From positions 1,178,001 through 1,242,000 of the forward strand of contig NZ_CP051514.1 in NCBI RefSeq assembly GCF_012689525.1: 64,000 nt of DNA, written 5' to 3'. Below, piece after piece: positions 40,154 to 60,910 of this stretch (its first letter is position 1; the number at the start of each line of letters is the position of its first letter). The notes beneath the pieces were generated by a model that was given only the letters and a program-made list of their open reading frames with translations, was not told where the DNA came from and made no database searches. The translations under genes and the position numbers were made by a program. Origin of the DNA: Paraburkholderia aromaticivorans. GTDB lineage: Bacteria > Pseudomonadota > Gammaproteobacteria > Burkholderiales > Burkholderiaceae.

Positions 40154-40274
40154 CACTGGATCCTCCGGTTGCCTTGGAAAAATCTCTATTTTCCACGTGG
40201 GCACATCGATGCCGTTGGCCCGTGAGGATCCACCTTGCTTTGCTCACTCGGCCACGGGGTGGGACGCGTTCATT

Positions 40275-41035: not shown

Positions 41036-41156
41036 ATGCGGATGAGAGGTGAAATCTTCAATGACCGCGCTTGCGAACAGCGGGGCAATCTGGGGAGTCG
41101 ATGCATAGCTCATCGTGACCGCAGCACCCCCACTGGCACGTTCAGCAGGAAACTAT

Positions 41157-44491: not shown

Positions 44492-46309
44492 CTACTCATC
44501 ACCGTTTGCATTGGTGATGTTACCGCTCGCGCCTGCCCGGGCATGTCCGCGTGTGAGCGTCAGCCCAGTATTCACTAGCCCGACATGAGAAAAGGCCTGC
44601 GGGAAGTTTCCAACGAGTCGACGCGAATGGACGTCATATTCTTCGGATAGCAGGCCGACGTCGTTCCTCAAGGCCAGCAATCGCTCGAAGAGCGCCTGTG
44701 CCTGGTCGCGCCTGCCTTGCAGGAACAGGTTGTCGGCAAGCCAGAAGCTGCAGGCGAGAAAGGCGCCCTCGCCTTCGCCCAGGCCGTCGTCAGCGTGCCC
44801 GGGACGATAACGGAACACGAGGCCGTCGGTCATCAGATGCTGTTCGATCGCGGTCACTGTGCCCTGCATGCGTGGGTCGCCCGGCGATATGAAGCCCACC
44901 AGCGGCAGCAGCAACAGACTCGCATCAAGTTCGCGGCCGTCATACACCTGGGTGAAAAAGTTGAGATCGGTGCTAAAGGCGTGAGAACAGACGTCAGCGT
45001 GAATCCGGTCCCGCAACTGTTCCCACTCGCGCACCGGCGCTTCCTGACGGAATTGCGCCGCCGACCTGATGGCGCGGTCCACCGCAACCCAGGCCATCAC
45101 CTTCGAAACGGTATAGTGCTGCGGCTTGCCGCGACTCTCCCAGATGCCCTGATCGGGTTGCTGCCAGACCTGTGCGAGGTGCTCCACCAGCTCACCCTCC
45201 AGGGTCCACGCGGCGCCGTCCGGGCCGAGACCGCCCTGACGCGACAGGTAAAGCGCGTTCATCACTTCACCGAAGACATCGAGCTGTAACTGGCCGACAG
45301 CGCCATTGCCGAACCGTACGGGTTTTGCGCCCTGGTAGCCGTCGAGCCACGGACACTCCCACTCGGTCACATGCCTTGCTCCGTCGATGGTGTAGAGGAT
45401 CTGCAACTGTGACGGCGCGCCGGCGACCGACCGCACGAGCCAGTCGCGCCAGCGTCGCGCCTCATCAGGGTAGCCGCCTCGCAGCAGCGCAAGCAATGTC
45501 AGACTCGCGTCGCGCAACCAGCAAAAGCGGTAATCCCAGTTGCGCGAACCACCCAGATGTTCCGGCAGCCCGGCAGTCGGCGCCGCGACGATCCCGCCGC
45601 CCGGCTCATGGATCAGCACCTTGAGGGTGATCAGTGAGCGGTTGAGGGCGTCTTCGTAGGGGCCGTGTGTGTCCGCCTGGGCCGACCATGCTTCCCAGAA
45701 CGCTGTCGTGATCGACAACTGATGCTGTGCGTCGTTGCACACGGGTGGCATGTCGCGGGTATCGCTGTAGTTCAGCACGAACGACACGCACTCGCCCGCG
45801 GCCACCTCAAAGCGACCCTGGACGCCACCGGCTTCGTCGCGCAACGCTGCAGAAGAGTGCAGCGTCAGCCTGTTCGATCCGCACGCGATCGAAAGGCCTG
45901 CCTCATCATCGAGCCGGCGGATCGCGGGAATCGCGCGCCCGTAGTCAAAGCGCGCCGCGAACTGCAGATCAAATTCGACGCTGCCGGCCTCCCCGAAGAC
46001 CATACGAATCAGTTGCGGGCATTCACCGCGCATTGGCATGAAGTCAACCAGTGCGGCGGTACCAGTGGCCGTCCTGAAACGGGTCTCGAGAATCAGCGTG
46101 GGACCACGATAGCAGCGCGTGACTTCTATCGGCGCCTCTACTGGCGCGATCTGCCATCGACCGTTCCCCGCATGACCTAGCAGCGCGGCAAAGCAGGTGT
46201 CGGAATCAAAGCGCGGCCAGCACAGCCAGTCGATCGAACCGTTGCGCGCCACCAGTGCCGCGGCCTGACCGTCGCCGAGCAGTGCATAGTCCTCGATGTT
46301 CGATGCCAT
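44492..46309 (-). CDS. Glycoside hydrolase family 15 protein (glucoamylase/trehalase-like)
   Basis: A 605-residue protein with an N-terminal beta-sandwich (YALLGDGQAAALVARNGSID, then WLCWPRFDS) and a C-terminal (alpha/alpha)6 barrel. Barrel landmarks are GGSRNWDYRFCWLRDASLTL near residue 260 and GEGEGAFLACSFWLADNLFL near residue 540, where the acidic catalytic residue is expected. It has no signal peptide, so it acts in the cytosol on alpha-glucans or trehalose. The true start is ATG 46309; the long upstream frame is arginine-rich noise. It is the last gene of the 12-gene minus-strand cluster, 97 bases after the SDR. Confidence 0.92.
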   Translation of the reverse strand: MASNIEDYALLGDGQAAALVARNGSIDWLCWPRFDSDTCFAALLGHAGNGRWQIAPVEAPIEVTRCYRGPTLILETRFRTATGTAALVDFMPMRGECPQLIRMVFGEAGSVEFDLQFAARFDYGRAIPAIRRLDDEAGLSIACGSNRLTLHSSAALRDEAGGVQGRFEVAAGECVSFVLNYSDTRDMPPVCNDAQHQLSITTAFWEAWSAQADTHGPYEDALNRSLITLKVLIHEPGGGIVAAPTAGLPEHLGGSRNWDYRFCWLRDASLTLLALLRGGYPDEARRWRDWLVRSVAGAPSQLQILYTIDGARHVTEWECPWLDGYQGAKPVRFGNGAVGQLQLDVFGEVMNALYLSRQGGLGPDGAAWTLEGELVEHLAQVWQQPDQGIWESRGKPQHYTVSKVMAWVAVDRAIRSAAQFRQEAPVREWEQLRDRIHADVCSHAFSTDLNFFTQVYDGRELDASLLLLPLVGFISPGDPRMQGTVTAIEQHLMTDGLVFRYRPGHADDGLGEGEGAFLACSFWLADNLFLQGRRDQAQALFERLLALRNDVGLLSEEYDVHSRRLVGNFPQAFSHVGLVNTGLTLTRGHARAGASGNITNANGDE

Positions 46310-46406: not shown

Positions 46407-47405
46407 CTATCTGCGGCGAATGGCCAGCAGCGTCGCGATAAGCCCGGTCGCCGCGCCCGCCAGCAACCAGTTGCGATTCTGGTCGAGCCACAACGCGGTA
46501 CTCGATGGGATCGCGCGATCGCTGAACGGTCCGTGAGTCGCGTGCAAACCGGGCACCGGGGTCCAGAGATTCGAAGGGCGATCGCTGGCGACTGTGCGCT
46601 CCTGCATCTGCGCGCTATAACCGGCATGCGCAAGGTAACGGTCAAGCAGGCCCGCGATGAATTTGTTCGCCCAGATCGCCTTGACCGTGGACGAACCGAC
46701 GTAGAGTTCGCGGCGTCGGTGGGTCGCGGCCCATACGACGGCACGTGCAGCGACTTCTGGCTGATAGATCGGTGGCACGGGTTGCGGCGGGTGCGGCAGC
46801 CGGCATTCTGCCCACTCGAACTGCGGCGTGTTCAGCGCCGGCATCTGGACCATCGTCAGATGGACACGGCTATGGTCATGCATCAGTTCACTACGCACCG
46901 AATCCGTAAAACCGCGGATCGCGTACTTCGCGCCGCAATAGGGCGATTGCAGCGGAATCGAGCGGTAGGCAAGCGCCGAGCCGACCTGAACGATCGTGCC
47001 TCGATTCCGCGGCCGCATCCGGCGTAACGCTGACATCGTGCCCCAGACGTAGCCGAGATAGGTGACTTCCGTCGCGCGCCGATATTCGTCCGGCGAAATG
47101 TCATGCAGCGGCGCAAACACCGTCGTCATCGCATCGTTCACCCAGACGTCTATCTCACCCAGTTCGGCTTCCGTGCGCGTCGCGGCAGCCTCGACCGCGG
47201 CCGCGTCCGAGACGTCCAGTGGAATTGCTATCGCCTTCCCGCCGAGTTCCTCCACCTCGCGGCACACGTCATCAAGCGCCGTTTCATCGCGACCGATCAG
47301 GGCGATTTTTGCGCCCTGCCGCGCGAATTCGTGGGCGCTCGCACGCCCCACTCCGGCGCTCGCCCCGGTTATGACGACGGTCATGCCATTTCTGTTCGCT
47401 TTCAT
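46407..47405 (-). CDS. SDR family oxidoreductase with C-terminal membrane helix
   Basis: 332 residues. The NAD(P)-binding motif VVITGASAGVGRASAHEFAR is at residues 10-29, the catalytic serine in VGSALAYRSIP and the YxxxK pair in SPYCGAKYAIRGFTDSVR. A C-terminal extension of about 80 residues ends in a hydrophobic stretch (NWLLAGAATGLIATLLAI) followed by RRR, suggesting attachment to the inner membrane. The substrate is unknown. It is 57 bases after the cytochrome gene and likely in the same transcript. Confidence 0.9.
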   Translation of the reverse strand: MKANRNGMTVVITGASAGVGRASAHEFARQGAKIALIGRDETALDDVCREVEELGGKAIAIPLDVSDAAAVEAAATRTEAELGEIDVWVNDAMTTVFAPLHDISPDEYRRATEVTYLGYVWGTMSALRRMRPRNRGTIVQVGSALAYRSIPLQSPYCGAKYAIRGFTDSVRSELMHDHSRVHLTMVQMPALNTPQFEWAECRLPHPPQPVPPIYQPEVAARAVVWAATHRRRELYVGSSTVKAIWANKFIAGLLDRYLAHAGYSAQMQERTVASDRPSNLWTPVPGLHATHGPFSDRAIPSSTALWLDQNRNWLLAGAATGLIATLLAIRRR

Positions 47406-47462: not shown

Positions 47463-48809
47463 CTACTTGAGCTTCCCGCGCGCCACCGAGACGTCGCGCG
47501 TCGCAACCGGCTTTGCCTCGTTACCCCAGGTCGTGCGCACGAAGCTCAGCACACTGGCGATTTCGGTGTCGGTGAACTGATTCGCGAACGCGGGCATCTT
47601 GCGATGCGTTGGTCCATTCAGGGTCTGCGGACTGGCGCCGCCCTCCAGCACGAGCCGGATGAGTGACGACGTGTCGGGCGCCAGTACCGCGGGATTGCCC
47701 GCCAGCGCCGGGAATTTTTGTGATTCGCCATGTCCGTCAGCCTGATGACACTTCGCGCAGAACGACAGATAGAGCCCGGCGCCGGGACGTTCGACATCGC
47801 CCGTCTTCAACGATACCGCCGTCTCCCGTGCCTTCTGGGAGTTCGGGGTGAAAGCACCCGACGCTTCGCGCGGCGGGAGGCTCTTCAGATAACGGGCGAT
47901 CGCATCCAGATCATCGTCGTTGAAATATTGCGCGCTGTCCTCGACCACCTGCACCATGCTGCCAAACGTCACCACATGCACATCGACGCCGTGACCGGAC
48001 TTGAGAAACGAAGCGATGTCGCGCGGCGACAGCCGACCCAGCCCCGAACCCGGATCGCCGGTGAGGTTTGGCGCGAACCAGTGGTCGTTGGTGCCGCCCG
48101 TCAGGTACAGTCTTGACGATTCGTCATAGCCGCGTTCTTCGAAACCGGGGCCGCGAGGCGTGTGGCAGGCTCCGCAGTGGCCGAGCGACTGCACGATATA
48201 GGCGCCCCGGTTCCACTGCACGTCATGCCTCTCGTCCGGAGTGAAGCGAGCGTGCCGTACGAATGCGAAATCCCAGAAGAACAGGCCCCAACGCTGGCTG
48301 AACGGGAACGGCAGCTTCGTCTCAGGCGGCCGGTTGCTGACCGGCTGCACGCCATGCATGAAGTACGCGTACAGCGCACGCATATCCGCGTCGCTGATCT
48401 TCGTGAACGACGCATACGGCATGGCCGGGTAGAGCCGCTTGCCGCCTGGTGCCACGCCGTCGCGCAGCACATCCTCGAAGTCCGCGTAGCTGTAGCGGCC
48501 TATGCCGGTTTGCGGGTCCGGTGTGATGTTGGTCGAATAGATCGTGCCGAAGGGCGAGCCCATCGCGAGGCCGCCGGCAAATGGCGCCCCCTGCTTCGGC
48601 AGGGTATGGCAGCCGGCGCAGTCGCCGATCTTCGCGAGATATTCGCCGCGCGCAATCAGCGCCGGGGCCGTCAGCGCAGCGGCAGTGCCGGCATCAGGGG
48701 AACCACCCTGCGCGAAGGTGTGCGCAGACAGGCCCAGCACGATCATCGTGATCGTTGCGGTGAAGAGGGCGCAAGCGGCGCGCGGCAAAATCCGTTTCAA
48801 GTGCGTCAT
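47463..48809 (-). CDS. Triheme c-type cytochrome (dehydrogenase cytochrome subunit)
   Basis: A 448-residue periplasmic protein with a signal peptide and three CxxCH haem motifs: IGDCAGCHTLP, LGHCGACHTPRG and SFCAKCHQADG, spread over the length as in the cytochrome subunit of membrane-bound alcohol, gluconate and sorbitol dehydrogenases. In those enzymes it accepts electrons from the GMC or PQQ subunit and passes them to quinone or an oxidase. ATG 48809 overlaps the preceding gene by four bases. Its expected partners (GMC flavoprotein and small subunit) are upstream in the same cluster, with the oxidase genes in between. Confidence 0.93.
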   Translation of the reverse strand: MTHLKRILPRAACALFTATITMIVLGLSAHTFAQGGSPDAGTAAALTAPALIARGEYLAKIGDCAGCHTLPKQGAPFAGGLAMGSPFGTIYSTNITPDPQTGIGRYSYADFEDVLRDGVAPGGKRLYPAMPYASFTKISDADMRALYAYFMHGVQPVSNRPPETKLPFPFSQRWGLFFWDFAFVRHARFTPDERHDVQWNRGAYIVQSLGHCGACHTPRGPGFEERGYDESSRLYLTGGTNDHWFAPNLTGDPGSGLGRLSPRDIASFLKSGHGVDVHVVTFGSMVQVVEDSAQYFNDDDLDAIARYLKSLPPREASGAFTPNSQKARETAVSLKTGDVERPGAGLYLSFCAKCHQADGHGESQKFPALAGNPAVLAPDTSSLIRLVLEGGASPQTLNGPTHRKMPAFANQFTDTEIASVLSFVRTTWGNEAKPVATRDVSVARGKLK

Positions 48810-49306
48810 CGCCACACGCTGCACGGTGAGACCAGCAGGACGGCCAATCCGGTTGCGATCAGGCCGACAAGAAAGAGCAGGCTGAGTATGAGCCCTGCCA
48901 TTGCGAGAAAGCGTGTTCGTCCCTCGCCTGCATTGGACACAGGCGAAGCAGGATCCAGGCGTGCGGCGCGCGTCATGCGCCAGCCTCGCCATGCAACCCA
49001 TACGCCCGCGGTGCCGATCAGCAGCGCGACGATACTCATCACGTTTAGCGCCGGCATCAGCCACGACCATTGGGGCGCTGCCAGCGCAGCCCGATGCGGG
49101 AAACACGCCTGTGCCGCGAGCGTCTCGCCGATTTCCGTCTGCAGGACCCATGCTGCGGCCGCACCCAACAGGCCGAACAGCATCATCGGCGTCCCGCCCC
49201 GCCGTCGATACGGACCCCGGCGTCCGGGGTTGTTGCCGGAGGCCGCATGCGCCGCCGCCGGCGACGGCTCGTCAGGCGCTTTCTGATAACTGACCGCGGC
49301 TGGCAT
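48806..49306 (-). CDS. Membrane protein of the oxidase cluster, unknown function
   Basis: 166 residues with three hydrophobic segments: MMLFGLLGAAAAWVLQTEIG, LMPALNVMSIVALLIGTAGV and FLAMAGLILSLLFLVGLIAT. A proline- and glycine-rich polar N-terminus precedes them. AGGAGA supports ATG 49306. It sits between subunit III and the cytochrome, overlapping the latter by ATGA. It may be a small oxidase-associated subunit or assembly factor; no family was recognised. Confidence 0.75.
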   Translation of the reverse strand: MPAAVSYQKAPDEPSPAAAHAASGNNPGRRGPYRRRGGTPMMLFGLLGAAAAWVLQTEIGETLAAQACFPHRAALAAPQWSWLMPALNVMSIVALLIGTAGVWVAWRGWRMTRAARLDPASPVSNAGEGRTRFLAMAGLILSLLFLVGLIATGLAVLLVSPCSVWR

Positions 49307-49316
49307 CGTCGCTCTC

Positions 49317-49916
49317 CTAGAAAAGAAAAGGCGTGATGTACAGCGTCGTGAAAATAAAGAGCCACACGACATCCACAAAATGCCAGTACAGGCCACCGAT
49401 TCTCAGCGCGGCACAACGCTTTTCGTCGAAGTAACCCAAGGCAGTCCAGGTCATGAGTGCTGCCAGCACGACGAGTCCGACGAGCACGTGAATCACGTGA
49501 AAACCGGTGATCGTGAAGTACAGCGACCCGTACAGATGCGTGGCGATGCCGTAGGGATGGTCATGCCACTCCTTCATCTGGATGCCGACGAAAACGATCC
49601 CCAGCACAATCGCCAGCGCCATCGAAGCGACCGCCCAGCGGATCCTGCGCCGGCGCACCAGGCGCTCGCACAGCCACACGAACACGCTGCTCGAGAGCAG
49701 AACACAGGTATTGAGCGCCCCGATGCCGATCTTCGGCAGTCCTTCGGGGGGCCAGTGCAGTTCGGTCTGCGAGCCAAGGTACAGATACGAAAAAATCAGA
49801 TAGCCGAATAGCGACGCTTCGGTGGCGACCGTCGCCATCATGCCCCACCAGCCGCTCGATAACTTGCCTGCGCTACCGACCGGAAGGACCAGTTCGCTAT
49901 CGGTCAGCTCACTCAT
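49317..49916 (-). CDS. Cytochrome c oxidase subunit III
   Basis: 199 residues with five hydrophobic segments, the short form found in caa3- and bo3-type oxidases. Typical sequence: WWGMMATVATEASLFGYLIF, GALNTCVLLSSSVFVW and YFTITGFHVIHVLVGLVVLA, ending LYWHFVDVVWLFIFTTLYI. ATG 49916 overlaps the end of the subunit I gene by eight bases, giving translational coupling. Subunit III stabilises the proton-uptake side of subunit I. Confidence 0.93.
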   Translation of the reverse strand: MSELTDSELVLPVGSAGKLSSGWWGMMATVATEASLFGYLIFSYLYLGSQTELHWPPEGLPKIGIGALNTCVLLSSSVFVWLCERLVRRRRIRWAVASMALAIVLGIVFVGIQMKEWHDHPYGIATHLYGSLYFTITGFHVIHVLVGLVVLAALMTWTALGYFDEKRCAALRIGGLYWHFVDVVWLFIFTTLYITPFLF

Positions 49917-51900
49917 GGCCGGCTCCCACATCCCGCACGGTCTCGGGTTCCCGCTGTATCAGCAAGCGCTCGGGCCAAAGCCATAGCAGGATCGCGGCGC
50001 CGCATGCCACCACCGTGAATCCCGCGAAGATCCACGCGTGCAGCAGCATGGCGACGAACAGCAGCGCACTGAACAAGCCGAGCAGGAACGGCGCATAGGA
50101 GTCGGACGGCATCTTCAGGATGATGTCGGGTCTCGCGTCGAGCGATGTCGTGCCTAGGGCCTCACGGCCATGATCAAGCACGAACCCTTCATCGAGCTGT
50201 GATTGGGCGCCCTCCCCGATCCGGTCTTCCCACAGCGGATTGCGGCTCGCCACGACCGGCACGACGGCGAAATTGTAGGGCGGCGGCGGCGACGGCACCG
50301 ACCATTCGAGCGACGCGCCGTCCCACGGATTGTCGCCCGCTGGCTGACCGCGCCGCAGGCTCACAGCCACATCGATCAGAAAGATCAGAATGCCGATGGC
50401 GAACACGAACGAGCCGATCGTCGTGATCATGTTGGTCGTGTCCCATCCCATGTTCGCCGGGTATGTATAGATCCGGCGCGGCATGCCCAGGAGGCCTGAA
50501 ACGTGCATCGGGAAAAAGCCCACGTTGAAGCCGATAAAAGTGACCCAGAACGAGAGCTTGCCGAGCCTCTCACTGGTCATCCGCCCGGTGAACTTGGGAA
50601 ACCAGTAATAGATGCCGCCCAGCACGGGAAATACGTTAATGCCCAGCAGCACGTAATGCAGATGCGCAACGACAAAATAGGTATCGGTGAGTTGCCAGTC
50701 AAATGGCACCGCGGCTGTCATGACACCCGAAACGCCGCCGATCACGAACATCAGCACGAAGCCCGCGAAAAACAGGAATGGGACGCGGTAGACCGGACGT
50801 CCGAGCCAGATCGTTGCAATCCACGCGAAGGTGGCCACCGCGCTCGGGATCGAGATGAGCGTACTGGCGGCGCCGAAGAAAGCCAGCGCGAGCGGCGCAA
50901 TCCCAGTCGCGAACATGTGATGAATCCAGACCACGAAGCCGATCATCATCGTTGCCACAGTGGAGATCGCGACGGGCGTATAGCCCACGAGCGGCCGGCG
51001 GCAGAAGGTTGGCAGCGCATCGGACACGATGCCCATCGCCGGCAGCACGACGACGTACACCCAGGGATGAGCAAAAATCCAGAACATGTGCTGCCACAAC
51101 ATCGGGCGGCCGCCATTGGCGACATCGAAGAAGTGTGTGCCGACCTGCCGGTCGAGCCACAACATGAGGAATGCAAGACTCACCGATGGGACTGCCACCA
51201 GATTGGCCGCCGACGCAGTCAGCGTGCCCCACACCAGGATCGGCAACCGGTCGATCGACATGCCGGGCGCGCGCATGCGCAGCAGCGTGATGACGAAATT
51301 GACGGAGCCCACTGTCGTCGAGACACCGAGCAGCACCATGCCGAGCGCGTAGACATCGACGTTCGGCCCGGTGTTGTATTCGAGACTCGAGAGCGGCACA
51401 TAATTGAACCAGCCGGCGTCGGGTGCCTGACCGAGCGGAAAACTGGCATAGAGAAAGAGCCCTGCGAAGAGGAAGACCCAGTATGACAATGCGTTGAGAC
51501 GCGGAAATGCCATGTCGCGCGCACCGAGCACGAGCGGCCACAGATAGTTCGAGAATCCCGACAGAACCGGCAACGCGTACAGGAAAATCATCGTGATGCC
51601 GTGCATCGTGAAGAGCTGGTTGTACTGCTCCGGCGACAGCAGATGAGAATCTGGCCGCGCAAGCTGCACACGCATCACGAGCGCCTCGACGCCGCCCGCG
51701 ATCAGAAAGATGAACGCGGTCACGATGTAGCGCATGCCGATCTGCTTATGGTCCACCGTGGAGAGCCACCCGCGCCAGCCCGGTTCGCTTTCCCACAGTT
51801 CACGCAGACGCTGCTCGCGCTCCGAACCTTGCGGCACGCGGCCAACTTCCGGCCGGCGTGCGAGCCGTAGATCGGGCGGATTGGGTGCGAGGTCGGCCAT
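49909..51900 (-). CDS. Cytochrome c oxidase subunit I, variant lacking channel Glu and Lys
   Basis: 663 residues, heme-copper oxidase superfamily. Metal ligands are present: FTMHGITM (low-spin haem), the crosslinked His-Tyr pair in AHPWVYVVV (His278, Tyr282), VWIHHMF (CuB) and VVAHLHYVL (both haems). The D-channel entrance GARDMAFPRLN is kept. But the helix-VI motif is HPWVY, not HPEVY (A1 type) nor YSHPxVY (A2 type), and the K-channel helix reads IPSAVATFAW with Ala356 where Lys is usual. A C-terminal extension adds PPPPYNFAVVP and two more membrane helices, as in fused I/III types. It must reduce oxygen, but how it takes up protons is unclear. Confidence 0.95.
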   Translation of the reverse strand: MADLAPNPPDLRLARRPEVGRVPQGSEREQRLRELWESEPGWRGWLSTVDHKQIGMRYIVTAFIFLIAGGVEALVMRVQLARPDSHLLSPEQYNQLFTMHGITMIFLYALPVLSGFSNYLWPLVLGARDMAFPRLNALSYWVFLFAGLFLYASFPLGQAPDAGWFNYVPLSSLEYNTGPNVDVYALGMVLLGVSTTVGSVNFVITLLRMRAPGMSIDRLPILVWGTLTASAANLVAVPSVSLAFLMLWLDRQVGTHFFDVANGGRPMLWQHMFWIFAHPWVYVVVLPAMGIVSDALPTFCRRPLVGYTPVAISTVATMMIGFVVWIHHMFATGIAPLALAFFGAASTLISIPSAVATFAWIATIWLGRPVYRVPFLFFAGFVLMFVIGGVSGVMTAAVPFDWQLTDTYFVVAHLHYVLLGINVFPVLGGIYYWFPKFTGRMTSERLGKLSFWVTFIGFNVGFFPMHVSGLLGMPRRIYTYPANMGWDTTNMITTIGSFVFAIGILIFLIDVAVSLRRGQPAGDNPWDGASLEWSVPSPPPPYNFAVVPVVASRNPLWEDRIGEGAQSQLDEGFVLDHGREALGTTSLDARPDIILKMPSDSYAPFLLGLFSALLFVAMLLHAWIFAGFTVVACGAAILLWLWPERLLIQREPETVRDVGAGHE

Positions 51901-51926
51901 GTTCTTCCTTGTCGGGTGGCGATGCG

Positions 51927-52952
51927 CTAGTGGAGCGTCGCGAGATAGGCGGAGAGCGCAGCGGCCTCCTGCACGGTCAGCGTGATACTGGGCATCAGCG
52001 AATCCGGTTTGATCTGTTGTGCGTGCTGCACCCAGTCGAGCAGGTGCTCTGAGGTATTCGTCAACGTGCCCGCTGCGAGCTGCCCGCGCGAGCCCACATG
52101 CGTGAGGTCCGGCGCCTGGACGCCGGCAGCGTCGCTGCCCCGTACCGCATGGCAGCCAGCACAGCGATCCATGAAAATCTTCTGTCCGGTTTGCACCTGA
52201 CCATCAGCGGGAAACGCTGCCCGACGGAGCTGCGCGCCGCGCCACGCGTCAAAATCCGCCTGCGGCTGCGCAACGACGTCGAACGCCATGTGCGCATGCT
52301 GGGCGCCACAGAACTGCGTGCACTGACCGTGATAGACGCCTGGGGCGTCGGCCTGAATCCATTGCGTGTTGACCTGGCCGGGGATCGCCTGGGTCTTGCC
52401 GGCAAGGCGCGGCACCCAGAACGCGTGAATCACGTCCGCGCTCCTGAGTCCGATCCTGACCGGCACACCTACGGGGATGTGAATCTCGTTCGCTGTGACG
52501 AAATGGCCCGCCGGATCGGAGTCGTCGCCATAGTCGATCTTCCACCACCAGTCGTACGCGGTGACGGTAATACTCAGGCCCGGCGATAGCGAAGGTTGTG
52601 CGACCGCCTGCAAGGTGACGAGTGTGTAAAAGAGCGACACCAGCAGCGCCAGCGTCGACACGCCGACGCCGATGTAGATCCACCCCATTCCACCCTCTTC
52701 CTTGCCCAGCGCGCGCGGCGGGGCCGCGGGACGACGCCGCACAAGCGCGGCCACGAGCAGGACCGCAATGATGGCGACAACCGCGACGCACAGTGCCGTC
52801 AGACCCCAGCCAAGATGCATCGTGGGCGTCGCCGCGGGGCCGGCGGAGTGCAGGAGATATTCGAGTGGTGCGTCGGCGTGTGCCAGCGGCGACACGAAAG
52901 GCACCGTCAGCGCTGCGAGCAAACGCCCCTTCCGGATCAGCGCGGGGCGCAC
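51927..52952 (-). CDS. Cytochrome c oxidase subunit II with C-terminal cytochrome c domain
   Basis: 341 residues: a signal peptide, two membrane helices (LTALCVAVVAIIAVLLVAAL and WIYIGVGVSTLALLVSLFYT), then a CuA cupredoxin domain. CuA ligands are visible in DVIHAFWVP and HGQCTQFCGAQHAHM; the usual glutamate between the cysteines is Gln here. The tail is a cytochrome c domain with CAGCH and a methionine ligand candidate in SLMPSITL. This makes the enzyme caa3-type, able to take electrons from another c-type cytochrome. The start overlaps the GMC gene by 16 bases. Confidence 0.94.
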   Translation of the reverse strand: MRPALIRKGRLLAALTVPFVSPLAHADAPLEYLLHSAGPAATPTMHLGWGLTALCVAVVAIIAVLLVAALVRRRPAAPPRALGKEEGGMGWIYIGVGVSTLALLVSLFYTLVTLQAVAQPSLSPGLSITVTAYDWWWKIDYGDDSDPAGHFVTANEIHIPVGVPVRIGLRSADVIHAFWVPRLAGKTQAIPGQVNTQWIQADAPGVYHGQCTQFCGAQHAHMAFDVVAQPQADFDAWRGAQLRRAAFPADGQVQTGQKIFMDRCAGCHAVRGSDAAGVQAPDLTHVGSRGQLAAGTLTNTSEHLLDWVQHAQQIKPDSLMPSITLTVQEAAALSAYLATLH

Positions 52953-54595
52953 GACAGTTCTCCACGCGCGGCGAGCGCTTCAATACGATCCGCGGTCCGG
53001 CAGGCGATCGCCTGAATCGTCAGCGACGGATTGACACCGCCCACGGTTGGAAACACCGAACCATCGCAGATCCACAGATTGGGTATATCCCAACTGCGGC
53101 AATCGCTATTCACGACACTTGTGCGCGGATCATCGCCCATGCGCGCGGTGCCGTTCAGATGGCAGGTATCGTAGTCCTGGTTCCAGATTTCACGTGCGCC
53201 CGCGGCCTGCAGGTGCTGGCCCATGAAGTCGAGCGCGTGTCTGACGAGGCGCGTGTCGTTGTCGCACAGCGAATAGGTGACGCGGGCGATCGGCAGGCCG
53301 TACTGATCTTTCTCGTCAGCGAGGGTGACGCGGTTTCGCTCCTGAGGCAGCGTCTCGCCTACGATCTTCAGCCCCGCCTGATGATTGTATTTTTCCATTT
53401 CACGAAGCAGCGCGTCGCCCCATAACCCGCGACCATTCTGCGTCGACGCCCACGCGCCCGGGAGCGCCCCCTGGCTCATGTAACAATATCCGCCGAAGAA
53501 ATCCTTGCCTGTGTCGGTGTAGTTCCAGTGCTCGGTCATGGCAAGCGATGGCGGCCCTTTGTACCAGCGGATCTCTTCGTCCATCACGCCCCATGCCGCC
53601 TGATTGGTCTGCACCATCAGGTTCTTGCCGACCAGTCCCGAACTGTTCGCGAGCCCGTCGGGGAACGCGGCGTTGGCGGACATCAGGAGCAGGCGCGGCG
53701 TCTCGATCGCATAGCCGGCAACCACCACGTTGCGCGCCCGCTGAAACTGCCACGCGCCTTCGCGCAGATAGTGCACGCCGGTTGCGTGGCCAGCGTCGTC
53801 CGTTTCGATGCGACCCACCATGGCCAGATCGCGGACCTCCGCGCCTGCCTGCACCGCCCACGGAACCCAGGTCACCAGCGCGCTCTGCTTCGCATTCGTT
53901 GAACAGCCCGTCACGCAAAACCCGCGATAGACGCACTGATGCGATTCGCCGCGCGGCGCCGACACCGTGGCGAGCGGCGTCGGTGTCCAGTCAATGCCCA
54001 GCGCCTCGGCGCCGCGCGCCAGCACCAGCGCCGCGGCGTTCAGTTCGTGGGCACGATACGGATAACGGGGACGCGGCGGGCCCCATGGATAATTCACGGG
54101 GCCGGAGATTTTCAACGCATCTTCGACCTGCGGGTAGTAGCGCCACATCTCGCGCCAGTCCAGCGGCCAGTCCGCGCCGTAGCCGAGTTTCGTACGCGCC
54201 TTGAACCATTCGGGCCGAAAGCGCAGCGACACCATCGCAAAGTGGACGGTGCTCCCGCCGACCGCCTTGCCGCTATTATTGTTGCCAAGCCGCAGCGGCG
54301 TTTCTCCATCGACGATGCGCTCGTCGGTCCAGTAGAGCTTCTCCTGATGCGTTTCGTCCGAGGCAAACTCTTCAAGTGGCCGCCACCAGGCGCCGGCGTC
54401 GAAGGCGACGACCGAGAAGCCCTTTTGTGCGAGGCGGCATGCCAGCGTGCCGCCGCCCGCACCCGTGCCGACGATGACGAAGTCGACAGCCTCGTTCTGC
54501 GGATACTCACGCATCGGCAGCCACCCACCGACCCGATGCACATCGGGTGCGCGCCCATCCTTGCCGCGAGGCGTGTGCAACGCATCATCGAACAC
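52937..54595 (-). CDS. GMC-family flavoprotein oxidoreductase (dehydrogenase large subunit)
   Basis: 552 residues with the FAD-binding motif DFVIVGTGAGGGTLACRLAQ near residue 36 and, toward the C-terminus, DTCHLNGTARMGDDPRTS with the catalytic histidine and NLWICDGSVFPTVGGVNPSL. This matches the large subunit of membrane-bound gluconate, sorbitol or related sugar and alcohol dehydrogenases rather than oxygen-dependent oxidases. GTG 54595 is chosen because AAGGAGA lies just upstream; a longer frame reaches 54820. It overlaps the small-subunit gene by eleven bases and the oxidase subunit II gene by 16. Confidence 0.92.
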   Translation of the reverse strand: MFDDALHTPRGKDGRAPDVHRVGGWLPMREYPQNEAVDFVIVGTGAGGGTLACRLAQKGFSVVAFDAGAWWRPLEEFASDETHQEKLYWTDERIVDGETPLRLGNNNSGKAVGGSTVHFAMVSLRFRPEWFKARTKLGYGADWPLDWREMWRYYPQVEDALKISGPVNYPWGPPRPRYPYRAHELNAAALVLARGAEALGIDWTPTPLATVSAPRGESHQCVYRGFCVTGCSTNAKQSALVTWVPWAVQAGAEVRDLAMVGRIETDDAGHATGVHYLREGAWQFQRARNVVVAGYAIETPRLLLMSANAAFPDGLANSSGLVGKNLMVQTNQAAWGVMDEEIRWYKGPPSLAMTEHWNYTDTGKDFFGGYCYMSQGALPGAWASTQNGRGLWGDALLREMEKYNHQAGLKIVGETLPQERNRVTLADEKDQYGLPIARVTYSLCDNDTRLVRHALDFMGQHLQAAGAREIWNQDYDTCHLNGTARMGDDPRTSVVNSDCRSWDIPNLWICDGSVFPTVGGVNPSLTIQAIACRTADRIEALAARGELSCAPR

Positions 54596-55250
54596 GTTCG
54601 TTCTCCTTGCGTGCTCCGTCCTCGCCACCCGGCGTGGCTTCGACCGCTTCCCAGGGATCGCGTCTGTTCGCAACCAGCCGCACATAGCCGCGCGGACTAG
54701 CAGGACCGCCGAAACCGATCTCACTCCACGACGAAGGATGCGAGTAATACGCGCCGCAGATATCGTGCAGCACCCGATCCGCGAAAAACAGTTGCGGCGG
54801 CATATCGTGCCAGGCGGCATCGGTCAGCTCGCCCTTCTGCATTTTCACAATCAGGGCGTCCTGCTCGCCGCCGTCGAGCTGATGAAACAGCACGTTGAAA
54901 CGGCCCTGGGCTTCGGCATCGAGTGCCGCAAGGCCGCGCTGCCACGCGGCGCGAGTGGGTGGCAGCCGCGCATCGCGATAGCCGTCGCCCTGGTCGCGCT
55001 GCAACCGCGCATCGACGAGCGCCGCGACCGGCACGGGCGGCCGGCCAGGAGGCTGGGGGACGACGCGCGCGCACAGCGCGTCCAGCGTGCGCCACGCGGC
55101 GTCATCGAGAAACGTTGGCTCGCGCCGGATGGCCAGCCGCTCGTCGACAACCCGCCGGGTCGGTTCGTTCCAGGACGGCGTGTGGCGTTTGCGCAGCACG
55201 TCGTAGCCGGGATAGCGCGGAGCGCGCGGGATTTTCTTTTGATCAGTCAT
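54585..55250 (-). CDS. Gluconate 2-dehydrogenase subunit 3 family protein
   Basis: 221 residues; the core FLDDAAWRTLDALCARVVPQ, FNVLFHQLDGGEQDALIVKM and FFADRVLHDICGAYYSHPSS, with SEIGFGGPASPRGYV, defines the family. In three-component sugar dehydrogenases this gamma subunit helps export and assemble the GMC subunit, often carrying the Tat signal for the complex. No twin-arginine signal is evident here, which is odd; export of the pair may differ. It overlaps genes on both sides. Confidence 0.9.
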   Translation of the reverse strand: MTDQKKIPRAPRYPGYDVLRKRHTPSWNEPTRRVVDERLAIRREPTFLDDAAWRTLDALCARVVPQPPGRPPVPVAALVDARLQRDQGDGYRDARLPPTRAAWQRGLAALDAEAQGRFNVLFHQLDGGEQDALIVKMQKGELTDAAWHDMPPQLFFADRVLHDICGAYYSHPSSWSEIGFGGPASPRGYVRLVANRRDPWEAVEATPGGEDGARKENERVR

Positions 55251-56193
55251 CCGCTTCCCCTTCCCTCAGACCAAGCGCCGCGAGACCCGCCAGCGCGAGC
55301 GCCGTGAAGCTCGGCGGCGCCGGGAGCGGTGGTCCGCTGAAGATGTTCTGTGACCAGTTGCGCCAGCCGCCCATGTTGCGCGCGACCCCGAACGTGTGAA
55401 ACCCGACGCCCGCAAAGCCGAGCAGCGCGGTACAGCGAAGCCAGAAGCGGGTGAACCAGCGCTCCGGCTGCGGCGCGGCGAGCGCGGCATGGGCGAGCAG
55501 CGCGGCGGCCATTGGCGGAATCGCAACCGGCGCGTACATGGCCGGGTTGTGGAATGCGCCCCTGAAATGCAGCAGCGCAGCTTCGCCGACCGTACCGATC
55601 AGCGCGACACTTGCGAGCAGGGCCAACGCACGGCCAGCCGGCATGCCGTACAGGCGCGGATTGCGCGCCGGCTCATCGCGCAGCCGCTCGGCAGCCGCGC
55701 CGAGTGCACCCGAGAGCAGCATCGCGATCGGAGCGCCAATCGGCGCCGCGTAAAACAGGTTGTCCCAGCCAAGCCCACCCGGTCGTTTCACTATGTTGTA
55801 CAGATGAAAACCGTTGCCGATCATGCCGGTGGCGGCGGCCGTCAGATAGATTGCGTCACGCACATGATGAGCGGCCGGATTGCTGTCCATGCCACCATGC
55901 ACGCCGGCGCCAAACGACAGCAGCGACACGACAAGCGGCGTATACATTGCGCGATTCTCGAATGAGCCGCGATAGTGTTCCATCCCGCTGTCGGCAAGTA
56001 CCGATAGCGCCAGCAGCGCGGAGCTGCGGTTGAGCTTCCTGGCAGCGTCCAGATGCGCCGGGACGTCGCCGCGCGTCACGCACAAGCGCCCTGAATGGCG
56101 CGGCGCTGCACCGGTACGCGTCAGCGCGACGGTTGCAGCGAGCGCGGCGGCTGCGCTCACGATTCCCAGCCCGATCATTTCCGCCTTCTGCAT
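55243..56193 (-). CDS. Polytopic membrane protein of the dehydrogenase-oxidase cluster
   Basis: 316 residues with about seven hydrophobic segments, including MIGLGIVSAAAALAATVALT, IGAPIAMLLSGALGAAAERL and ALALLASVALIGTVGEAALL. Several histidines lie near helix ends (HHVRDAIYL, GNGFHLYNI, GFHTFGVARN), which could bind haem, but this is only a possibility. Two internal segments repeat a pattern (EHYRGSFENRAMYTPLV and LHFRGAFHNPAMYAPVA), indicating an internal duplication. AAGGAG precedes ATG 56193. It overlaps the small dehydrogenase subunit gene by eight bases. The function is unknown; a quinol or cytochrome linking role would fit its position. Confidence 0.78.
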   Translation of the reverse strand: MQKAEMIGLGIVSAAAALAATVALTRTGAAPRHSGRLCVTRGDVPAHLDAARKLNRSSALLALSVLADSGMEHYRGSFENRAMYTPLVVSLLSFGAGVHGGMDSNPAAHHVRDAIYLTAAATGMIGNGFHLYNIVKRPGGLGWDNLFYAAPIGAPIAMLLSGALGAAAERLRDEPARNPRLYGMPAGRALALLASVALIGTVGEAALLHFRGAFHNPAMYAPVAIPPMAAALLAHAALAAPQPERWFTRFWLRCTALLGFAGVGFHTFGVARNMGGWRNWSQNIFSGPPLPAPPSFTALALAGLAALGLREGEADD

Positions 56194-56215: not shown

Positions 56216-57322
56216 TCAATGCGCACGATAACGCTGCGCATCCGCGTATTTGAATTCGAGGCCACAGCCCGGTCGTGAGAGGTCGGGCGTGATCACACCA
56301 CCGTGCGGCGTCGGTGCGCCGTCAAACAGCATGCGTTCGATGCGGACGTGGTCATGAAACCATTCCTGATGCCGAAGGCGCGGCACCGCGCAGGCCACGT
56401 GCAGGTGCAACGCCGGCGCGCAGTGGGCGGAGAGCGCGATGTGATGGGCGTCCGCCAGATGTGCTGCCTGCATGAAGCCTGTGATGCCACCGCACCGGCT
56501 TGCGTCGGCCTGCAACACGTCCACCGCACCGGCTTCGAGCATGCGGCGGAAATAGTCGGTGGTGTATCCGTATTCGCCGGCTGCCACTTCCATGTCGTGC
56601 GGTAGCAGATCACGCAGTCGGCGCAGCCCTTCGAGATCATCTGAGGACACCGGTTCTTCGAACCAGCTGACCTGTTGCTCGCCAAATACAGCCGCCAATC
56701 CTGCCGCCTGTTTTACGTCGAGGGCGCCATTCGCATCGACGAACAGGCCATGTTCGCCGATCGCGGCGCGTGCGACTTCCACGCGATGCGGATCACCCTC
56801 GGGATCGGAGCCGATCTTCATTTTTACCCAGCGACAGCCGCCGTCGGCAATCCAATACGAGAACTGCTCGCGCAGATCGTCGTCCGTATAGGTCGTAAAT
56901 CCGCCACTGCCGTAGATGGGCACAGCATCGCGCAGCCGGCCGAGCAACCGTACCAGCGGCAGGTCGAGCAGCTTCGCCTTCAGGTCCCACAGCGCGCAGT
57001 CGATCGCGGAGATGGCGGTCGCGGCGAGTCCTTCCCGTCCGAGATTGCGCACGCTGCGCTGCATCGCCAGCCAAGCACCGGGTATATCGAACGCGTCGCG
57101 GTGCTGGATGGCTTGCGCCAGTATCTGCTCGACGAGTGGCACCACGGACGCACTCGCATACGTATATCCGAGCCCTGTCTTGCCGCCGGCTTCGATCTCG
57201 ACGACGACCAGCGTCGTCGAGTTCCACGCGATGGTGCCGTCTGCCTCAGGCTTGTCGGTCGGAATGATGTAAGCCTGCGCCCGCATCCGACCAATCGGCG
57301 CCTCAGTTGGGTAAGCACGCAT
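56216..57322 (-). CDS. Enolase-superfamily enzyme (mandelate racemase/muconate lactonizing type)
   Basis: 368 residues. Catalytic features: WVKMKIG (KxK base), metal ligands in FVDANGA, WFEEPVSSDD and AAGEYGY, and the histidine in IALSAHCAP, placing it in the mandelate racemase subgroup that includes sugar-acid dehydratases. N-terminal capping sequence TTLVVVEIEAGGKTGLGYTY is normal. With a sugar dehydrogenase complex downstream, dehydration of an aldonic acid product is a reasonable guess, but the substrate cannot be read directly. The start lies five bases after the stop of the ThDP enzyme gene. Confidence 0.9.
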   Translation of the reverse strand: MRAYPTEAPIGRMRAQAYIIPTDKPEADGTIAWNSTTLVVVEIEAGGKTGLGYTYASASVVPLVEQILAQAIQHRDAFDIPGAWLAMQRSVRNLGREGLAATAISAIDCALWDLKAKLLDLPLVRLLGRLRDAVPIYGSGGFTTYTDDDLREQFSYWIADGGCRWVKMKIGSDPEGDPHRVEVARAAIGEHGLFVDANGALDVKQAAGLAAVFGEQQVSWFEEPVSSDDLEGLRRLRDLLPHDMEVAAGEYGYTTDYFRRMLEAGAVDVLQADASRCGGITGFMQAAHLADAHHIALSAHCAPALHLHVACAVPRLRHQEWFHDHVRIERMLFDGAPTPHGGVITPDLSRPGCGLEFKYADAQRYRAH

Positions 57323-57326
57323 CGCC

Positions 57327-59174
57327 TCAGCCCTTCTTCCCGTCCGGCGTCCCTTCGGGCTTCCCGTTGACTTCGTCGTGATCCTTGTGGCCGTGCGGCA
57401 GCACCGCGCTCAGCACCTGCTTCATCGCGCCCATCAGCATGCCGCTTTCCTGCGGGTCGCCCTTGATGAGCGTTTCCGCAAAGGCCCTGGCTTCCTTCAG
57501 CGTGATGTGTGGCGGCAGTGGCGGGACGTTGGGGTCCGACTTCACTTCCAGGACCACGGGGCGATCCGCTGCGAGCGCCTCTTCCCAGGCCGCGCCAAGG
57601 CGTTCGGGATCGTCGACGTAGATGCCCTTCAATCCGATCAGTTCCGCGAACTTGTGATACGGCACGTTGGGAATCTGCTGCGATGCATTGAACTTCGGGT
57701 CGCCCTCTATCACGCGCTGTTCCCAGGTCACCTGATTCAGATCCTCATTGTTCAGAACCATGCAGATCCAGTGCGGATTCGACCATTGTTTCCAGTACTT
57801 CGAAACCGTGATCAGCTCGGCCATGTTGTTCATCTGCATGGCGCCGTCGCCGACAAGCGCGATCACCGGCCTGTCCGGATAGGCGAATTTTGCAGCGATT
57901 GCATACGGCACCGCCGCACCCATCGACGCGAGGCCGCCGGATAGCGAACACATCATGCCTCGGCGGATCTTGAGATCGCGTGCATACCAGTTGGCGCACG
58001 AACCCGAGTCGCTCGTGATGATTGCGCGTTCAGGCAGCCGCGGGGAAAGCTCCCACATCACGCGCTGCGGGTTCACGTTGGTTTCGGCTTTTTCCATCGC
58101 CCGCGCTTCGAGCGTCTTCCACCACTCGCTCACCCAGCCTTCAATTTTCTTACGCCACGCACGGTCGGTTTTTTCCTGCAGCAGCGGCAGGAGCGCCTTT
58201 AACGTATCGACGCTGTCGCCGACCAGATTGACCTCCATCGGATAGCGCAGGCTAAGCATGTCCGCCTTGAGGTCGATCTGCACGCCACGCGCCTGCCCTT
58301 CTTCCGGCAGGAATTCCGAGTAGGGAAAACCGGAACCGATCATCAGTAGCGTGTCGCACTCTGTCATCATGTCCCAGCTCGGTTTGGTGCCGAGCATGCC
58401 GATCGAGCCCGTGACCCAAGGCAACTCGTCAGGCAACGCCCCCTTGCCGAGAAGTGCCTTCGCGACGCCTGCGCCGAGTTTGTCAGCCAGCGCGATCACT
58501 TCGTCCGTGGCGTGCAGGGCGCCTGCCCCGACCAGAATCGCGATCTTTTCGCTCGCGTTCAGCACGTCGGCCGCACGACGCAGGTCGTCATCCTTTGGCA
58601 CCACCTTGGGCGCGGAGTACCCAATGCCCGAATGAACCGTGCCGTGCTGGCGCGGTGGATCCTGATAAGGCTCGTCCTGAAGGTCATTAGGTAGCACGAT
58701 CGCAGTCACGCGTCGCTCGGATAACGCGGTGCGGATGGCGCGGTCGACAAGATGCCGCACCTGCGGCGGCACGCTCGCCTGTTGGACGAACGCGCCGGCC
58801 ACGTCCTTGAACAGCGAAGGCAGATCGAGTTCCTGCTGGTAATGGCCGCCGAGCGACGCGCGCGCCTGCTGGCCGGCGATCGCAAGCACCGGCATGTGAT
58901 CCATGCGTGCGTCATACAGGCCGGTGACGAGGTGTGAGGCGCCGGGACCCGAGGTCGCAAGACATACGCCGAGTTCCCCGGTGAATTTCGCATGCGCCGA
59001 GGCCATGAAGGCGGCCATTTCTTCGTGCCGGACCTGAATGAACTCAATCTTTCCCTCGGCTCGGTTCAGCGCACCCAGGATGCCGTTAATGCCGTCCCCG
59101 GGGTAGCCGTAGATGCGCTTGATGCCCCATTGGTGTAGACGTTCCACAAGAAAATCGCTGACCGTCTGACTCAT
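57327..59174 (-). CDS. ThDP-dependent enzyme, pyruvate oxidase/acetolactate synthase-like
   Basis: 615 residues with the three-domain layout of the family. The N-terminal pyrimidine domain holds the catalytic glutamate in QVRHEEMAAFMASAHAKFTG. The central FAD-like domain has ILVGAGALHATDEVIALADK, and the C-terminal diphosphate domain shows VGDGAMQMNNMAELITVSKY with the GDG...N motif. Closest in character to PoxB-type pyruvate:quinone oxidases, which yield acetate, CO2 and reduced quinone. A charged C-terminal tail (HGHKDHDEVNGKPEG) is present. It begins the 12-gene cluster; ATG 59174 follows AGGAGACC. Confidence 0.88.
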   Translation of the reverse strand: MSQTVSDFLVERLHQWGIKRIYGYPGDGINGILGALNRAEGKIEFIQVRHEEMAAFMASAHAKFTGELGVCLATSGPGASHLVTGLYDARMDHMPVLAIAGQQARASLGGHYQQELDLPSLFKDVAGAFVQQASVPPQVRHLVDRAIRTALSERRVTAIVLPNDLQDEPYQDPPRQHGTVHSGIGYSAPKVVPKDDDLRRAADVLNASEKIAILVGAGALHATDEVIALADKLGAGVAKALLGKGALPDELPWVTGSIGMLGTKPSWDMMTECDTLLMIGSGFPYSEFLPEEGQARGVQIDLKADMLSLRYPMEVNLVGDSVDTLKALLPLLQEKTDRAWRKKIEGWVSEWWKTLEARAMEKAETNVNPQRVMWELSPRLPERAIITSDSGSCANWYARDLKIRRGMMCSLSGGLASMGAAVPYAIAAKFAYPDRPVIALVGDGAMQMNNMAELITVSKYWKQWSNPHWICMVLNNEDLNQVTWEQRVIEGDPKFNASQQIPNVPYHKFAELIGLKGIYVDDPERLGAAWEEALAADRPVVLEVKSDPNVPPLPPHITLKEARAFAETLIKGDPQESGMLMGAMKQVLSAVLPHGHKDHDEVNGKPEGTPDGKKG

Positions 59175-60077: not shown

Positions 60078-60910
60078 GGCTTTGTCAGGTTGAGGGGAGG
60101 CGGCGGTAGAATGAAGTGATGAAGAAGACGAAATCGCTTTACCACGGTCGCCGTTTCCCCGCCATCGTCATCAGCTGCGCGGTTCGCTGGTATTTCCGGT
60201 TCAACCTGAGCCTGCGCGATATCGAGGAGTTGTTGCTCGAACGCGGTGTCGTGGTCAGCTACGAAACGATCCGTTGCTGGTGCGAGAAGTTTGGCGCTGG
60301 ATTTCGCCCAGCGCGCCAAAGCCGGACGGCGCAAGCCGGGTAGCACATGGCATCTGGACGAAATGTTCGTGACGCTGCGCGGCGAGCCGTATCTGCTGTG
60401 GCGAGCGGTCGACGAGCATGGTGCTGAACTCGACGTGCTGGTGCAAAAGCGGCGCGACAAGGCTGCGGCAAAGCGCTTTTTCCGGAGGGTGCTACGTTCA
60501 AACCCGGTGCCGCGCAAGATCGTCACCGACCAGCTACGCAGCTATCCAGCGGCAAAAGGCAGAGATTCCCGAACTTGTTCATGTGAAGCACGTTTTCGTC
60601 AAGGCGGCTGCACGGGTGAACAACCGCGCAGAGAACACCCACCAACCGACCCGCAGGCGCGAACGGCAGATGTGTGGCTTTCGCGATGCGCGTCGCACGC
60701 AGGCGTTTCTCTCATGCTTCGGACCGATCCGGCAGCACTTCGCGTTGCCCAGACATCTGATGAACGCAGCATGTCATCGCGGAATGCTGCAGGAACGCTT
60801 CGCCAAATGGTATGACTGGACAGTCACCACCGCGGTATCCAACACTATCTGATAAGGATAACTACGTTTTAAGGGCGTTTGTTGGTGGCACCCGTCAACT
60901 TGACAATGCC
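60078..60910. mobile_element. IS6-family element, decayed
   Basis: 833 bp, with related ends GGCTTTGTCAGGTTGAGGGG at 60078-60097 and the complement of GGCATTGTCAAGTTGACGGG at 60891-60910 (17 of 20 identical). Flanking 8-mers GACGGAGC and GACGTGGC agree at six positions, perhaps an old target duplication. The transposase inside is frameshifted. Confidence 0.78.
60119..60852 (+). pseudogene. IS6-family transposase with two frameshifts
   Basis: Reads across three frames as one transposase: KKTKSLYHGRRFPAIVISCA and LSLRDIEELLLERGVVVSYE first; then, after an extra base near 60301, GSTWHLDEMFVTLRGEPYLL and KIVTDQLRSYPAAK; then, after another near 60560, AEIPELVHVKHVFVKAAARV and NNRAENTHQPTRRRE to the end. 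The DDE residues are still encoded. Both lesions are single-base insertions. The element is not autonomous. Confidence 0.85.

Follow-up and report, generated by a model that had tools for sequence, protein, structure and literature searches.

The window analysed here is a stretch of 64,000 nucleotides from Paraburkholderia aromaticivorans, situated on contig C1 of a genome of 10.84 Mb in 4 contigs. Around positions 47463 to 56193 its minus strand carries a closely packed run of genes for a GMC flavoprotein dehydrogenase and a caa3-type oxidase, which the initial annotation had read as one dehydrogenase complex encoded together with its own oxidase, carrying electrons from substrate to oxygen without the quinone pool. 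Here we present a comparative analysis of this locus, in which two units were found instead of one. MEM-SUB3-GMC, usually behind a thiamine pyrophosphate (TPP)-requiring enzyme and a mandelate-racemase-like (MR-like) gene, is a unit of its own, in which the polytopic membrane protein MEM is the constant partner of SUB3 and GMC. COX2-COX1-COX3-SMALL-CYTC is a second, separate unit.

Organization of the locus

The genes are given in minus-strand order, with the evidence for each assignment in brackets.

57327..59174, minus strand: TPP-requiring enzyme, pyruvate-oxidase-like, PRK08273 family, heading the dehydrogenase module (NCBIfam NF006129, 1127 bits against a cut-off of 724)
56216..57322, minus strand: MR-like protein of the enolase/mandelate-racemase superfamily (PF13378, E 1.4e-58)
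55243..56193, minus strand: MEM, membrane protein, polytopic and internally duplicated, with invariant H73, H130, H209 and H266 (no Pfam or NCBIfam family)
54585..55250, minus strand: SUB3, gluconate 2-dehydrogenase subunit 3 family, without Tat signal (PF13618, E 1.5e-23)
52937..54595, minus strand: GMC flavoprotein with the [3Fe-4S] Cys C221, C227 and C231 (PF00732 and PF05199; GTG start at 54595)
51927..52952, minus strand: COX2 fused to a cytochrome c domain, opening the oxidase module (PF00116 and PF00034; GTG start)
49909..51900, minus strand: COX1, 663 amino acids, with a C-terminal extension (PF00115; TIGR02891, 711 bits against a cut-off of 671)
49317..49916, minus strand: COX3, 199 amino acids (PF00510, E 2.4e-28)
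48806..49306, minus strand: SMALL, hydrophobic protein of 166 amino acids, oxidase module (no Pfam or NCBIfam family)
47463..48809, minus strand: CYTC, triheme cytochrome c, final gene of the oxidase module (PF00034 and PF13442; three CXXCH; start at 48809)
46407..47405, minus strand: short-chain dehydrogenase/reductase (SDR) oxidoreductase (PF00106, E 3.8e-39)
44492..46309, minus strand: GH15 glycoside hydrolase with a trehalase-like N-terminal domain (PF00723, E 3.4e-80; PF19291, E 1.3e-19)

Pfam matches and CXXCH motifs confirmed the gene families named in the initial annotation (subunit 3-like protein, GMC, triheme cytochrome, COX2 with cytochrome c, COX1 and COX3). The overlaps of 4 to 16 bases that it reported at most junctions are likewise present, at 5 of the 7 junctions inside 47463-56193: MEM/SUB3 (8 bases), SUB3/GMC (11), GMC/COX2 (16), COX1/COX3 (8) and SMALL/CYTC (4). 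Gaps of 26 and 10 bases separate COX2 from COX1 and COX3 from SMALL. The gene run goes past this interval, with the TPP and MR-like genes upstream (gaps of 4 and 22 bases) and the SDR and GH15 genes downstream. These four neighbours suggest, by their predicted families, a role in carbohydrate metabolism and point to no particular substrate.

Comparative samples

A scan anchored on GMC and run on one genome for each species confirmed 264 places, from which the best 80 named loci were kept; flanks of up to 10 kb, some of them short, were fetched for each named locus. COX1 in the flanks was counted as of the window's kind above 55% identity, and TPP enzyme, MR-like gene and COX3 were scored as present at 45% identity or more. 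For the family survey 150 Burkholderiaceae genomes were evenly drawn. COX2 of the window's kind was defined by at least 55% identity and a second COX2 kind by 39-52% identity, and for CYTC the best 60 matches of a longer table were used. The tree of COX1 comprises 31 rows. MEM was also sought in 72,556 plasmid records, 23 of which had matches; 7 of these, picked for diversity, were opened and checked by tblastn (Lichenicola, Nitrobacter, Komagataeibacter, Methylocystis, Croceicoccus, Deinococcus and Granulicella). Stretches of about 9 kb around the plasmid modules were examined for relatives of the oxidase genes and of CYTC, the latter at E≤1e-4. Signals for twin-arginine translocation (Tat) were judged by a simple pattern, RRxF with a hydrophobic stretch near the N-terminus, and not by a trained predictor. 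Numbers beginning with L and G denote loci and genomes.

The dehydrogenase module

SUB3 lies directly before GMC in 77/80 loci and MEM directly before SUB3 in 74/80, which makes MEM the constant third part of the dehydrogenase and not the extra component for which it had been taken. In three of the six remaining loci (L057, L060 and L079) a contig ends at or near GMC; L062, with a spacing of about 260 bases (beyond the threshold), and L029, with an interrupted SUB3, both retain MEM. The TPP enzyme is present in 62/80 loci and the MR-like gene in 64/80. SDR is the commonest gene after GMC, being on the same strand, within 1.2 kb and first of the set in 37/80 loci. In L021 (Paraburkholderia sp. 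CNPSo 3272) only SUB3 residues 170-221, the last quarter of the protein, precede GMC and MEM is missing; other sequence lies upstream and the oxidase is still found behind GMC, which indicates either a broken dehydrogenase module or an assembly fault.

The family survey gave the same picture, with GMC in 28/150 genomes and MEM in 27/150, all 27 MEM genes adjoining a GMC gene. The sole GMC genome without a MEM match, G503, has its SUB3-linked GMC copy at a contig end; a second GMC copy is partial, with neither SUB3 nor MEM found beside it. On the plasmids the genes for TPP enzyme, MEM, SUB3 and GMC occur in this order in 7/7 records from three phyla, so that the MEM-SUB3-GMC unit is found in Pseudomonadota, Deinococcota and Acidobacteriota. 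The MR-like gene is present in 5/7 and not in the Methylocystis and Croceicoccus records. In the Granulicella record a cyclase-family gene stands between MR and MEM, and GMC is split in two pieces. In L115 (Nitrobacter hamburgensis plasmid 1) genes for NrfD, a 4Fe-4S dicluster protein, a cytochrome c3 family protein and DUF3341 lie upstream of the module on the opposite strand, a set resembling that of alternative complex III.

The closest named relatives of the window's GMC are from Paraburkholderia, with 93-94% identity. GMC aligns with the alpha subunit of the glucose dehydrogenase of Burkholderia cepacia (BcGDH; 6a2u, E 7e-50) and with fructose dehydrogenase (E about 7e-46), its C221, C227 and C231 falling on the BcGDH [3Fe-4S] ligands Cys212, Cys218 and Cys222. 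This Cys triad and H118 are conserved in 91/91 sequences, and the [3Fe-4S] Cys are found in Granulicella too. BcGDH Cys213, which forms the disulfide to the small subunit, has as its counterpart Val, Ala or Ile in 91/91 sequences and never Cys. SUB3 matches PF13618, and neither sequence comparison nor Foldseek linked it to a gamma subunit of solved structure.

The membrane protein MEM

An AlphaFold model of MEM built with 71 sequences (pLDDT 87.7, pTM 0.84) has eight long helices, an N-terminal helix and a short helix. The two halves align with each other in hhalign with a probability of 99.2, against 3.5 for the best of 20 column-shuffled controls, and on this model MEM is a duplicated protein of twice four helices. 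In each half the first helix has a His at its end (H73, H209) and the third has one near its end (H130, H266), and from these positions all four would be expected near one face. The four are conserved in 70/70, 71/71, 71/71 and 71/71 rows, respectively, and are invariant in nine sequences from three phyla down to 28% identity; Arg, Gly and Pro residues are conserved as well. The pattern of four His may fit two bis-His hemes b, which makes MEM a putative heme-binding protein.

A Pfam search with the 71 members gave weak, scattered matches only, and PF09678 (Caa3_CtaG) was not among the families at E≤1. Fold searches gave no convincing relative. Most members of the family carry the annotation 'hypothetical protein' and have a 'gluconate 2-dehydrogenase subunit 3' as neighbour, and no description of MEM-SUB3-GMC was found in the literature searched.

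Predicted side of the membrane

The small subunit of BcGDH is described as a Tat hitchhiker in PMC6719666. No Tat-like signal was found by the pattern in SUB3 (0/87 sequences, window included) or at the N-termini of GMC (0/91), and none was seen by eye in SUB3 of Deinococcus and Granulicella. In the 56 of 78 loci in which starts were paired automatically, the end of MEM lies at most 17 bases from the start of SUB3, the overlap being mostly 4 or 8 bases, and there is therefore little space for a longer SUB3 N-terminus.

As a control within the same genome, the other PF13618 proteins have RRxF and a hydrophobic stretch near the N-terminus in 5/5 cases. Four of the five Tat-type GMC genes of this genome adjoin a triheme cytochrome gene, and MEM was detected beside none of them (0/5). 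The five PF13618/GMC pairs, at C1:138287, C2:3051654, C2:1048038, C1:2103599 and C1:169966 (L090-L094, L102-L106), are of the ordinary exported type. Since SUB3 is without a Tat-like signal while all five paralogues have one, GMC:SUB3 probably acts in the cytoplasm, and a direct hand-over of electrons to the periplasmic CYTC or to CuA would therefore not be expected.

The oxidase module

The best match of COX2 in the PDB is subunit II of the Thermus caa3 oxidase (2yev_B, E 8.5e-45), and its translation contains CTQFCGAQHAHM, which we take to be the CuA motif. In 31/31 COX1 sequences (the window and 30 relatives) the HPEVY Glu is replaced by Trp and the K-channel Lys by Ala, and the channel-entrance Asp is retained in 31/31. 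Functions in proton paths are ascribed to all three of these residues. Judged from its sequence, COX1 is an A-family oxidase subunit with unusual proton-path residues, which depart from the A1 pattern. SMALL has a relative in 18/80 loci, and COX3 is present in 22/80.

The motifs CAGCH, CGACH and CAKCH were read from the translation of CYTC. Residues 43-440 of its 448 align with the cytochrome subunit of alcohol dehydrogenase (8gy2_B, E 1.4e-104), and the protein likewise aligns with the cytochrome subunits of glucose and fructose dehydrogenase (E 5e-98 and 1e-81). The initial annotation had assigned CYTC to the dehydrogenase, an assignment that is contradicted by the company the gene keeps. 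COX2 of the window's kind occurs in 35/150 family genomes, and CYTC follows it on the same strand in 38/39 loci. This is so also where GMC is missing, as CYTC lies behind COX2 in 8 of 9 COX2 loci in eight genomes without GMC. Of the best 60 CYTC matches, 54 have a listed COX2 at a distance of 7 kb or less, and wherever a match comes within 15 kb of GMC a listed COX2 is nearby as well; on the plasmids a CYTC relative was found near the module in 0/7 records. CYTC thus tracks COX2 with or without GMC and is therefore the oxidase's cytochrome. Accordingly, when an oxidase operon ends in a dehydrogenase-type cytochrome gene, this gene need not belong to the dehydrogenase upstream.

The second COX2 kind, which includes L085 and L088 and is probably of the caaBAC type, has a homologous triheme cytochrome downstream in 16/17 loci.

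Neighbourhood of the two modules

COX1 of the window's kind is present in the flanks of 31/80 loci and not in those of 49/80; among the 27 loci named as other families or as unclassified Proteobacteria it was found in the fetched flanks of none. COX2 is the first gene of the set after GMC in 7/80 loci. In 6/7 plasmid records no relative of COX1, COX2 or CYTC was detected near the module. The dehydrogenase genes are thus placed independently of such an oxidase, and the oxidase in turn is found without GMC in 8 of its 35 family genomes; the initial annotation had itself named independent mobility of the dehydrogenase genes as fatal to its single-complex idea.

Within the 150 family genomes, 27 have both GMC and COX2, 1 has GMC only, 8 have COX2 only and 114 have neither; the Fisher value of 1e-21 for this co-occurrence is descriptive only because the genomes are related. 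Where both genes are present they share a contig in 24 of 27 genomes, the nearest pair being 0-12 kb apart. For 29 GMC loci the position of the nearest COX2 breaks down as follows: 16 have it upstream on the other strand, 3 downstream on the same strand within 1 kb and a further 3 at 2.5-3.1 kb, 3 downstream on the other strand, and 3 on a different contig; in 1 it is absent. The pairing of dehydrogenase and oxidase in the initial annotation accordingly holds for Burkholderiaceae as a matter of neighbourhood, but not as a single complex.

The direct GMC-COX2 junction falls in two separate clades of the COX1 tree, and the starred branches force at least two changes, for which two gains would be the simplest reading. 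In the second clade GMC and COX2 are 0.2-0.6 kb apart in the cases measured, without the overlap of the window. In P. mimosarum (L036), whose COX1 groups close to that of the window (91% identity, by tree path second nearest after L010), the position of the oxidase is instead upstream of TPP; Caballeronia (L013) has it behind GH15, with the same spacing in L014 and L046. These arrangements, together with SDR being the commonest gene after GMC, are most simply explained if the oxidase came to lie between GMC and SDR in the lineage of the window.

The exception among the plasmids is that of Methylocystis iwaonis (L117), where a divergent operon upstream of TPP-MEM-SUB3-GMC contains COX1 (71% identical), COX2 (40%) and a c-type cytochrome. 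The same operon holds a pyrroloquinoline quinone (PQQ) methanol/ethanol dehydrogenase, and thus joins the same kind of oxidase to another dehydrogenase. This plasmid favours a looser functional link between the module and this kind of oxidase.

Proposed explanation and alternatives

On the best explanation, rearrangement has brought together two modules that are independent of each other, a dehydrogenase that faces the cytoplasm and delivers electrons to quinone by way of MEM, and an oxidase with its own cytochrome; we put the probability of this reading at about 0.5. The first module (TPP, MR-like, MEM, SUB3, GMC) would be a dehydrogenase of the glucose/fructose-dehydrogenase type with flavin adenine dinucleotide (FAD), not exported and predicted to lie on the cytoplasmic side. 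Electrons would pass from the substrate to FAD, as is known for the family, then to the [3Fe-4S] cluster with its conserved ligands and, as the strict partnership suggests, to MEM. With eight helices and one His pair per repeat, MEM may hold two hemes b or other metal centres and would reduce quinone, taking the place of the triheme cytochrome c of the exported relatives. The second module would be a caa3-type oxidase resembling those of COX operon type a-II, served by a periplasmic triheme cytochrome c of its own. Electrons would flow from the first module to the second only indirectly, a possible route leading over quinone and the periplasmic CYTC to caa3.

The homology of CYTC over nearly its full length to dehydrogenase triheme subunits, the gene overlaps in the window genome and the shared contig of GMC and COX2 in most genomes with both would also suit a single exported GMC-SUB3-CYTC dehydrogenase that passes its electrons straight to the adjacent caa3 oxidase. 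Such a chain is very improbable, given that SUB3 has no Tat-like signal in any of the 87 sequences, that CYTC goes with COX2 and not with GMC, and that 49 of the 80 loci and six of the seven plasmid modules have no such oxidase genes in the stretches covered. The bypass of the quinone pool that was part of this proposal finds no support, and the topology predicted from SUB3 argues against it. A looser association, compatible with the two-module explanation, is possible, though the odds are somewhat against it: the dehydrogenase would feed quinone, and caa3 with CYTC would be the matching outlet under the same conditions of slow growth or stress, selection keeping the complexes close while their order is shuffled. 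The distribution over the 150 genomes (27 with both, one with GMC only), the several arrangements that preserve proximity and the direct junctions in two clades speak for it, and the 71% identical COX1 with a PQQ dehydrogenase divergent from the Methylocystis module raised its likelihood slightly. On the other side, related genomes are not independent, all loci may share one rearranging region of a secondary replicon, and such a COX1 is missing from the fetched flanks of all 27 loci that belong to other or unclassified groups.

What MEM does is a further point of choice. That it is not redox-active, and serves in assembly, metal handling or as a lipid-facing scaffold anchoring GMC:SUB3 while the [3Fe-4S] cluster passes electrons directly to quinone or a soluble acceptor, would agree with its lack of a heme family match and of a convincing structural match, and with the conservation of Arg, Gly and Pro besides His. 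We consider this rather unlikely, as four His, two per repeat, persist at 28% identity and scaffolds rarely retain such a pattern of conserved His. A bolder reading, less likely than not, is that MEM is a new class of membrane electron-transfer subunit, in which a unit of four helices is duplicated and each repeat holds one heme b. MEM-SUB3-GMC would then be a cytoplasm-facing, complex-II-like sugar/alcohol:quinone oxidoreductase, derived from an exported FAD/[3Fe-4S] dehydrogenase by loss of the Tat signal and exchange of the triheme cytochrome for a membrane cytochrome b, and distributed over the chromosomes and plasmids of three or more phyla. The interest of the locus lies in MEM rather than in the link to the oxidase. 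If the proposed explanation is right, electrons enter the respiration of many soil bacteria through the MEM family, and there is a cytoplasmic counterpart, in which electrons leave by another route, to the exported dehydrogenase complexes employed in biosensors.

Comparison with known systems

BcGDH and fructose dehydrogenase share with the window a GMC subunit with aligned [3Fe-4S] Cys and, going by the Pfam match of SUB3, a PF13618 small subunit, and CYTC belongs to the family of their triheme subunits. The window module differs from them in having neither a Tat signal nor a partner for a Cys213-type disulfide, and the triheme gene is encoded with the oxidase and not with the dehydrogenase. 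To our knowledge, these complexes have no constant membrane partner resembling MEM.

Oxidases that have a dehydrogenase as neighbour and an additional cytochrome are already known. COX operon type a-II is characterized by a COX1 of 630-670 amino acids with a C-terminal extension and by frequent PQQ dehydrogenase genes (Degli Esposti 2014, PMC4013037). A COX3 of five helices also belongs to this definition, the window's COX3 being 199 amino acids long. The window's COX1 agrees with this in length and extension, and a dehydrogenase beside the oxidase is, going by the same text, a known theme; the neighbour here is, unlike in that description, a GMC enzyme, which is directly joined in few lineages only. 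The window's COX1 also has the Trp for the HPEVY Glu and the Ala for the K-channel Lys described above.

In Burkholderia cenocepacia H111 the caaBAC genes (caaB-caaA-caaP-caaC) include a small membrane protein and the cytochrome caaC, and the caa genes are hardly expressed except on minimal agar, with an 11-fold induction, according to PMC11742914. The succession of a caa3 oxidase, a small membrane protein and a cytochrome c gene is the same as in the window; subunits I and III are fused there, unlike in the window, and caaBAC probably corresponds to the second COX2 kind and not to the window's. The Thermus caa3 oxidase (2yev) resembles the window's in its COX2 with fused cytochrome c and differs in the fusion of subunits I and III (2yev_A). 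Its operon is given in PMC11742914 as having no such genes for a small protein and a cytochrome.

Further features of the window

At 40541-41113 an open reading frame for a pyridoxal phosphate (PLP)-dependent, cysteine-synthase-like protein covers only positions 3-150 of the 295 of its profile and looks truncated; it lies near an IS110-family transposase at 39134-40204. An open reading frame at 60246-60815 resembles, judged by eye only, a fragment of an IS6-type transposase.

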